Source: Candidatus Coproplasma excrementavium
Lineage (GTDB): Bacteria; Bacillota; Clostridia; Christensenellales; Borkfalkiaceae
Direction of reading: 5' to 3'
DNA: 40,661 nucleotides
Assembly: GCA_018715195.1 (NCBI GenBank)
Contig: DVMA01000090.1
Span: 1 to 40,661, forward strand
The position numbers were made by a program, and so were the translations under genes. The notes beneath the pieces were generated by a model. That model was given only the letters and a program-made list of their open reading frames with translations. It had not been told where the DNA came from and ran no database searches. Positions 8,356 through 26,690 of this stretch are shown piece by piece; position 1 is the stretch's first letter; each line of letters begins with the position of its first letter.

Positions 8356-8367
8356 ATTTGAGCAAAA

Positions 8368-8503
8368 CAAAGATGCCGCAGACAGCAGGCGCGAACCATT
8401 CGCTCAATTTCCTGCCGAGGTGTTAAGGTTTAATAAAGATTATCCGTAAGATATACTCTTTTTTATGTCCTTATGCCGTGCGGCGTAAGGGCTTTTTTAA
8501 ATT
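8368..8503 (+). promoter_or_regulatory. L10 ribosomal-protein leader (rplJL attenuator)
   Basis: GACAGCAGGCGCGAACCATTCGCTCAATTTCCTGCCGAGGTGTTAAG, typical of the Firmicutes L10 leader, followed by hairpin CCTTATGCCGTGCGGCGTAAGGGCTTTTTT. Confidence 0.85.
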
Positions 8504-8523
8504 CTTAAAAGGAGGTACGCAGT

Positions 8524-25278: not shown

Positions 25279-25310
25279 TATCCCCCTTGCGGCTTGCCGC
25301 AAGGGGGATA
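25279..25310. terminator. Perfect long hairpin, candidate distal 3' end of the 25.3-26.6 kb minus-strand transcript
   Basis: TATCCCCCTTGCGG-CTTG-CCGCAAGGGGGATA, 14-bp perfect stem; minus-strand exit is ATTTTAT-rich. Confidence 0.6.
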
Positions 25311-25825
25311 ATACACAGACCAGTAAATTCCTTGACGGGAGGAGAACTTTGTCCCGCAGGAACCGTATTTAATTTTTACCCCGTAATAGTTTGTGCGGAT
25401 TCTCCGACCTCCCGACTGGTCGGACGCGCCTGCTTTCCCGCACCGCGCTTAAAATCTTTTGCAAAATTTCCCGTATTCAAAGGGAAAACGTTTCAGGGCG
25501 TAAACCCGATTCTGTGAATTTGTCTTTTAAAGGTTGCATCGCATGCGATGCTGTTTCCGCCGCGCAGGCGGAGCTTTGAAACTGATATACGGGAAATCAG
25601 ACTGAATATGTTTTCCGCAACCGCTAATCCGCTATCTGCCAACGGCCTCCGACGGTGGGGGAAGGTGTACAAACATTATGTTTTTCCGCCGAAAACCCTC
25701 AGCGCGGAAATATCAGACCGCTTTCCGTATATATTTTATATTGTGTACCTTTCACTCGGCCGAGGTCCGCATACCGAGGCGGAGGGGGAGTGCGCGCCCT
25801 GCCCCGTGTCCGCGGCAGTCCGGGT

Positions 25826-25855
25826 ACAAAAACCTGCACAGTGATTTGTGCAGGT
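25826..25855 (-). terminator. Rho-independent terminator of candidate ncRNA
   Basis: Minus strand ACCTGCACA-AATCAC-TGTGCAGGT-TTTT; plus-strand exit is not T-rich, supporting minus orientation. Confidence 0.7.
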
Positions 25856-26560
25856 ATTGTTTACGAAGTTATTATTAAGTTTTAATTTGTATGAGACCCG
25901 CTTCCGCTTTATTTACGGTGCCCTATCGGCACTTGCGGCAAACGCCATACAGGTTGAACTTGTTCCGGTTAAGGAATTCAGAAATCTTATCTCCGTAGCT
26001 TTCAGCTCCGAAGGGGAGTAAACTTTCCTTATCTCAATCATTCCAGACTGTCTGTCTGCTCTTCCGCATATTCAATTTGACTCGGGATATCAAATTTTTC
26101 ATTCCCCGGCTATCGGGGCCTTCGTATCCGGAATTGAATTTCCCTCCTTCAGGGGTTTAAAAAACTCTTTCTCCTCAGTCGCACAGCTTCTGCGGATAAG
26201 TTTAATTCAATCTGAAATGTTGCCTTCGGGATTGTCTGCCTGCCCTTTTCTTCTTACGGCGGCGGCTTTCAGACCTTCTGTCTTCCGAAAACCTGTTCAA
26301 ATCCCTGCAAAATTAAAACCGTGTTTTCAGAATAAGGTCTCCCGGGTATGACTGTTCATTGGACTACCCTCCTTGATTACGTAGTAGCTTTGAGGAAGTA
26401 AAGCGTTTTGTTTTTCATGTTCTTTTTTTACCTCCTTGCTATTCAATTTATATCTTAACGGGCGGTACGCATTACGCTGTCCGCTCTGCGGTATAACATT
26501 GACCCCCTTTCGGGGCTACTTGAACTTCATCTTTAACCTCTTTTTTGATTTTTAGTTTAA

Positions 26561-26579
26561 AATGTTTAGCGCTAACATT
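26561..26579. promoter_or_regulatory. Palindromic operator, LacI-family-like
   Basis: AATGTT(T)AGCGCTAACATT; arms match around central AGCGCT, one inserted T; lies about +24 to +42 of the predicted ncRNA start. Confidence 0.5.
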
Positions 26580-26609
26580 TTTTGTTTGCTTTTATCTTTT
26601 TGTACTTTC

Positions 26610-26637
26610 ATTATACCATCGCATATCCGTTTGTCAA
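26610..26637 (-). promoter_or_regulatory. Consensus sigma70-type promoter of candidate ncRNA
   Basis: Minus strand TTGACA (26637-26632), 16-nt spacer, TATAAT (26615-26610). Confidence 0.88.
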
Positions 26638-26690
26638 TAGGTACGCGAAAAAAAATTTAATAATTTTTGTTTTTTGTGCGCCCTGCTTAA

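Follow-up and report, generated by a model that had tools for sequence, protein, structure and literature searches.

What is encoded on the minus strand between positions 26,637 and 25,826 of the window, the 40,661-nt stretch of Candidatus Coproplasma excrementavium DNA (contig DVMA01000090.1) analysed here, where neither strand of the locus holds a conventional protein? An earlier note made from the sequence had proposed an autonomous, structured noncoding RNA with its own promoter and terminator, lying outside the known RNA classes that could be recognised by eye. Its strand, ends and coordinates proved correct. The promoter TTGACA-16 nt-TATAAT (26637-26610, minus strand) matches the consensus at 12/12 positions, with a 16-nt spacer and a TG preceding the −10 element, and no other promoter site within 3 kb scores above 9/12. 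The intrinsic terminator, placed by the note at 25855-25826, was likewise recovered (25827-25855, minus strand), as a hairpin at 25855-25832 plus a T-run. Promoter and terminator are about 780 nt apart and delimit a transcript of 778 nt, for which the minimum free energy was −215.2 kcal/mol versus −176.4 ± 6.1 kcal/mol in shuffles (z −6.4; 0/20 dinucleotide shuffles as good). The claim that no credible protein is present also held on both strands, yet three micro-ORFs lie inside the RNA. A similar promoter was seen at the homologues inspected, and a terminator hairpin follows the 3′ tail in those read by eye.

Clear copies in the same genus were found by a DNA search of 60 related genomes, and 40 loci emerged from a pattern scan of 85,462 species genomes; every one lies in a metagenome-assembled genome (MAG) of Clostridia or Eubacteriales, and three belong to named Candidatus Coproplasma species. 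With a covariance model of the 5′ module, copies were recovered from 77 of 94 genomes in the genus (54 of 62 among those of high quality), nearly always one per genome; the genus consists of MAGs from gut Clostridia, some of whose records are named Candidatus Coproplasma. A core model, R1, had no matches outside the genus in an order-wide sample; in a family sample it gave weak matches in other genera, which showed the same layout on reading. Model R3, built from these other-genus copies, matched 120 of 201 family genomes and 11 of 18 genera, with the reservation that the E-values of R1 and R3 are rough, that about 20 loci were read by eye and that the weakest matches may be false. All homologues come from MAGs, and the evidence is that of sequence comparison; on this basis, the locus is almost certainly a genuine conserved RNA gene.

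Beyond the family, transcripts with micro-ORFs and the same start motif were found in other families of the order (loci L182 and L189) and in other orders of the class (L201, L203, and L204), and these may be relatives of the same family or may share the module alone. Near their 3′ ends, L201 and L203, which come from different families, have a common final micro-ORF, MLDIK(S..)-stop, that runs into the terminator. Other matches (L028, L030, L185, L188, L190, L191, L197-L200, and L205) were set aside as they look like chance matches or lie inside coding sequence. A narrow search for a phage origin, with one start-motif pattern, gave 0 matches in 2.9 million viral contigs.

The genes next to the RNA vary among the relatives read by eye (antiporter, pyrH, DegV, nitroreductase, glycyl-tRNA synthetase, or a spore-germination gene), and the RNA is thus not the leader of a gene. 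A cis leader or attenuator was rejected for this reason and because the RNA has its own terminator, beyond which lies, in the window, a convergent yfbR-like gene. Between yfbR and the RNA, a strong 14-bp terminator-like hairpin (25279-25310) can be read as a minus-strand terminator, and the window's clade additionally conserves the segment just 3′ of the RNA's own terminator (25740-25826, minus strand; GCCCGAACTGCCG...GTATGCGGACCGGCCGAG; alignment A1).

From 5′ to 3′, the gene is composed of the promoter, an A-rich leader, a hairpin, micro-ORF 1, a GAAA-capped hairpin, micro-ORF 2, micro-ORF 3, a core of helices named Pa to Pf, an A/U-rich tail, and the terminator. In the core (all positions on the minus strand), Pa pairs GAGACC (26336-26341) with GGTCTC (25893-25898), and 6/6 of its pairs show double changes among 30 homologues. 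Pc pairs ACGGT (26318-26322) with ACCGT (25915-25919), and Pe is the hairpin GGC-GTTT-GCC (25937-25946); these, like the 3′ strand of Pa, are supported by covariation in the core and by eight close relatives of the window copy. Pd pairs GCAGG (26304-26308) with CCTGT (25949-25953), with double changes in 4/5 pairs and 40/40 alignment cells paired in the window's clade. Pf, GCC-GATAG-GGC (25920-25930), is weak in compact copies and is kept in the close relatives. Across 30 compact copies, 89.8% of the cells of the five-helix core were paired, 17 of 26 pairs were changed on both sides, and double-change cells numbered 124 versus 48.3 ± 6.1 after shuffling, values somewhat favoured because the structure was drawn from the tested alignment itself; pairing was at most 50.6% when the partner was slid by one base. 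Pa was also seen to covary outside the genus, where 11 sequences gave 19 double-change cells versus 7.1 ± 2.0. A family-wide alignment, A4, was left out of pair counting for its poor quality. The A/U-rich tail (25870-25890) has the family consensus A[CA]AAYUGAAUA and is a possible pseudoknot partner of the strand joining Pc and Pd. True partners gave −3.9 kcal/mol versus −3.15 kcal/mol for swapped ones, with 34/5000 permutations as low; permutations ignore relatedness, and these values thus weakly suggest such a pseudoknot.

The large size that the earlier note had stressed holds for the window copy, at about 780 nt, but not for most relatives, which measure 330-450 nt. What lengthens the window copy is a 350-nt insert (25954-26303, minus strand) in the Pd loop, specific to its clade, as seen by comparing alignment A6 with the compact core A2. 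The nested stems listed in that note fared unequally in eight close relatives. The GTGCC/GGCAC stem corresponds to Pf. Two others were upheld, ATTCAATT/AATTGAAT with 41/53 cells paired and 7 double changes and CCCCG/CGGGG with 32/40 cells paired and 6 such changes, whereas GGATA/TATCC was not, being paired in only 5/35 cells. GTATG/CATAC was mostly gapped. AGACCTT/AAGGTCT and TCTGAAAAC/GTTTTCGGA are kept in the window's clade, but they do not covary and they compete with the family-wide Pa. In this clade, GAGACC has a second conserved partner, the AAGGUCU of the insert (40/46 cells paired), which could act as a further switch. At 26270-26341, part of the 3′ strand of Pb/Pa (CGGAA...GGUCU) seems to have been duplicated in the insert, giving a competing local hairpin that is kept in most of the clade.

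The three micro-ORFs (4, 13, and 10 codons, starting at 26530, 26418, and 26359 on the minus strand) have good Shine-Dalgarno (SD) sequences, and the micro-ORFs of this RNA are in general SD-led and 2-20 codons long. Micro-ORF 1 (26516-26540, minus strand) consists of the SD GAGG and ATG AAG TTC AAG TAG, encoding MKFK; across the copies it mostly reads M-K/T-x-K/T-stop, and the stop is UAG in the aligned genus copies. Directly 3′ of this stop, the hairpin CCCC-GAAA-GGGG (26504-26515, minus strand) covaries as CCCC/GGGG, CCGC/GCGG, and CGGC/GCCG, and is 100% paired in 44 distinct sequences. The module formed by ORF1 and this hairpin is repeated in tandem in L031, L060, and L078, and ORF1 is lost or replaced in one subclade (L017, L019, L020, L022, and L027). 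Micro-ORF 2 (26377-26437, minus strand) has the SD AAGGAGG and encodes MKNKTLYFLKATT followed by a stop. Its synonymous fraction was 0.294 versus 0.170 ± 0.042 in a column-shuffled null (2/1000), in groups picked by length and from sequence pairs that are not independent, and 407 changes fell at the third codon position versus 204 and 238 at the first and second; the alignment comparison shows ORF2 to be under coding constraint. In genus g27 (L133, L136, L137, and L154), the start of ORF2 lies within a hairpin, CAUAUC...GAUAUG/GGUAUG, whose loop holds the SD and whose stem holds the AUG. Micro-ORF 3 (26327-26374, minus strand; SD AAGGAGGG, then CCA-ATG-AAC..., encoding MNSHTRETLF and a stop) overlaps ORF2 or starts close behind it, and the 5′ strand of Pa is contained in its 3′ part. 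No synonymous excess was found in its codons 3-6 (0.104 versus 0.086, 131/500). The term noncoding thus remains right as to a conventional protein but is inaccurate for an RNA that carries conserved start sites and in which ORF2 shows coding constraint. Conserved coding potential, which the earlier note had held incompatible with its proposal, is in part present, in ORF2; the structured RNA still stands, and both coexist.

It may be asked whether the transcript is simply an mRNA for micropeptides, with ORF2 (about 13-16 aa, core LYFAKTIExKGR) as the product and the structures only controlling its translation and stability. The synonymous excess in ORF2, the similar ORF2 endings (YF-K---KGR) in other genera, and the repetition of ORF2-like units in L065 argue for this, but the other micro-ORFs have 2-5 codons and encode poorly conserved peptides (MG, MH, MY, MHK, and MDN, each followed by a stop), a large core with compensatory changes lies 3′ of the last ORF, and the end of ORF2 is partly set by the overlapping SD of ORF3. 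We consider a micropeptide mRNA unlikely.

The start sites themselves also show a regularity. At 133 sites defined by a CCR-AUG context, the second codon was NAC in 112 (UAC 67, AAC 31, CAC 9, and GAC 5) and never NAU, whereas the third codon was NAC in 19 and NAU in 50 (Fisher 3e-29, uncorrected for relatedness); conservation of CCR is not evidence in itself, as it was part of the site definition. NAC codons specify Tyr, Asn, His, and Asp, amino acids whose tRNAs all have a GUN anticodon and, in many bacteria, are modified with queuosine. An RNA motif in which one base is free would account for the AUG-NAC pair, and so would a decoding rule. It is very probable that the micro-ORF start sites are used. 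In four distant loci (L132, L135, L141, and L204), however, ACG or AAG takes the place of AUG in modules whose motif is otherwise intact. In the genome of the window, CCRAUGNAC with a real SD is confined to this RNA; the two other matches are without an SD, and a set of mRNAs sharing this start was rejected on these grounds.

At the 5′ end, the hairpin AAATGTT-AGCGCTA-AACATTT (26560-26580, minus strand) exposes a self-complementary loop hexamer, AGCGCT (26573-26568). In the genus, a self-complementary hexamer lies within the seven-base loop of 64/64 copies with a recognised hairpin, one of them through G-U pairs only, as compared with about 4% (Watson-Crick) to 10% (with G-U) expected by chance in a random loop of the same composition. 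Ten hexamers were found (GGUACC, GCGCGC, AGCGCU, GACGUC, GCUAGC, GGCGCC, GUGCAC, ACGCGU, CGCGCG, and GCUGGC), and a tree made without the hairpin sequence requires no fewer than 19 switches between them; the 5′ module contains 31 double-change cells versus 9.2. An outer helix, AUAACUUAC/GUAAGCUAU, encloses the hairpin in the genus and is missing from the window's clade. Within a single loop the hexamer has no way of pairing with itself, so what is selected must be an interaction of two molecules or of two DNA strands. We consider it highly likely that the loop is the signature of kissing-loop homodimers, and an RNA homodimer is predicted. None of the homologues read from other genera showed the palindromic hairpin, and dimerisation would thus be a genus-level feature.

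Comparative support therefore exists for an autonomous RNA gene, a core fold, selection on a palindromic loop, conserved start sites, and constraint on ORF2. As a whole, the single-copy gene would specify a stand-alone, dual-function structured RNA that is dimeric and coupled to ribosomes, a reading that we find plausible, if slightly short of an even chance. Against it count the absence of a synonymous excess in ORF3, the loss or replacement of ORF1 in one subclade, the weakness of the pseudoknot signal, the failure to see the palindromic hairpin in other genera, and the distant modules with ACG or AAG for AUG. A kissing complex at the loop hexamer would hold two transcripts together, and ribosomes would load on the micro-ORFs. 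Since the last part of ORF3 also supplies the 5′ strand of Pa, ribosome occupancy of ORF3 and folding of the core would exclude each other. The RNA would then report the status of translation and work in trans, with the ribosome or other RNAs as its probable partners, given that no gene follows the terminator. This ribosome-coupled switch is a tentative working model.

Three other readings bear on the same features. In the first, the transcript is a conventional trans-acting base-pairing sRNA, and ribosomes on the micro-ORFs only protect or time it. The stand-alone transcript, the A-rich 5′ leader, and the intrinsic terminator with its T-run are consistent with such an sRNA, but the initiation sites are better conserved than any candidate unpaired seed, and we doubt this explanation. 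In the second, the RNA is a hibernation-like sponge for ribosomes or 30S subunits, in which a dimeric scaffold uses its several SD-AUG modules to sequester initiation complexes and the very short ORFs favour peptidyl-tRNA drop-off. A variable number of modules, duplicated in L031, L060, L065, L078, and L132, and the recurrence of 2-5 codon ORFs across genera would fit, but constraint on the ORF2 peptide is unexpected for a pure sponge, which appears rather unlikely. In the third, the 5′ palindrome forms no RNA kissing loop and instead serves, as DNA, to bind a dimeric protein that regulates the promoter. In favour are its position immediately downstream of the promoter and a size similar to that of the palindromes used as LacI-type operators. 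However, the symmetry centres of the stem arms and of the hexamer are offset by half a base, so that a single DNA dyad cannot serve both; the variant GCUGGC is self-complementary through G-U pairs alone, and wobble pairs also occur in the stem; ten different cores would require ten specificities; and the motif occurs once in the genome. In L018/L026, moreover, the entire stem has been rebuilt around a new palindrome, GUGCAC, with the seven-base loop retained. The offset, the G-U-dependent pairs, this rebuilt stem, and the single genomic site favour RNA over DNA; a LacI/CcpA-type operator was rejected on the offset and the single site, and an operator of any kind is improbable. A CsrB-like sponge for CsrA, with GGA in each module, is practically out of the question despite repeated AGGA/GGA motifs, some in hairpin loops, as CsrA was found in 0/13 genomes searched (9 of the genus) by a search that works, 3/14 control genomes having matched.

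Whether the RNA belongs to a known class was addressed with covariance models. Neither the window copy nor 15 homologue loci matched Rfam at the gathering score, and loose searches (E ≤ 10 for the window region, E ≤ 1 for 6 homologue loci) gave chance-level matches only. The genome has a good tmRNA elsewhere (G000:C79, E 7e-49) and a 6S RNA over the cut-off (G000:C37), and neither identity was retained for the locus. Several known RNAs resemble it in part. The dual-function RNAs RNAIII of S. aureus, SgrS, and SR1 are regulatory RNAs that also carry a small ORF; here, several very short ORFs share a start motif within one RNA family, and a function in trans is inferred. Minigenes are very short ORFs that cause peptidyl-tRNA drop-off, and the 2-5 codon ORFs with strong SDs are comparable, but in this case they are part of a conserved structured RNA. 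The retroviral DIS kissing hairpin offers an analogy of mechanism only: it is short, with a six-base loop palindrome, and its hexamers include GCGCGC and GUGCAC, both found here, whereas the present RNA is bacterial, with a 7-nt loop and an unrelated sequence context.

The likeness to OLE, GOLLD, and ROOL drawn by the earlier note is apt in one respect, since the palindromic loop predicts homo-oligomers, but the RNA belongs to none of these classes and matches no other in Rfam. OLE, ROOL, and GOLLD form homo-oligomers held partly by symmetric kissing loops, and a Nature 2025 study used palindrome-switching covariation, in tetra- and dinucleotides, as evidence for OLE L9.3 and GOLLD L21a (PMC12286853). 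All three share with this RNA the nature of stand-alone, large structured bacterial RNAs, and OLE and GOLLD also the palindrome-switching signal; it differs in being chromosomal, in its micro-ORFs, in a hexamer palindrome with 10 variants, in matching no Rfam model, and in that no association with phages or tRNA arrays was seen. The raiA motif, or ModT RNA (PMC11706538), is also a structured RNA class of Bacillota, from which our RNA differs in having no Rfam match beyond chance level. Our RNA was not found described in the literature searched, most subscription journals lying outside the coverage.

To our knowledge, no other RNA combines a loop whose palindrome switches, micro-ORFs arrayed under a common start motif, and a 3′ core that covaries. 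As this combination is new to us and no tested family fits, the RNA could be categorically new, or could count as a variant under a broad dual-function heading, depending on how wide that heading is. A more specific proposal is a new class of homodimerising single-copy RNA, in which a CCR-AUG-NAC micro-ORF array senses ribosome or tRNA status and switches a trans-acting 3′ core, with related micro-ORF RNAs across Clostridia; we regard it as possible but speculative. If these readings are true, an RNA not listed in Rfam is present as a single copy in most members of a large group of uncultured gut Clostridia, and this whole group of gut bacteria would seem to use a regulatory RNA of a previously undescribed kind. 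The ten interchangeable hexamer palindromes would then be among the clearest comparative signals of bacterial RNA homodimerisation known to us. The AUG-NAC pair, conserved across many unrelated micro-ORFs, offers a direct handle on how ribosomes use very short ORFs.

Elsewhere in the window, a ribosomal protein L10 leader was detected above the Rfam gathering score at 8358-8507 on the plus strand.
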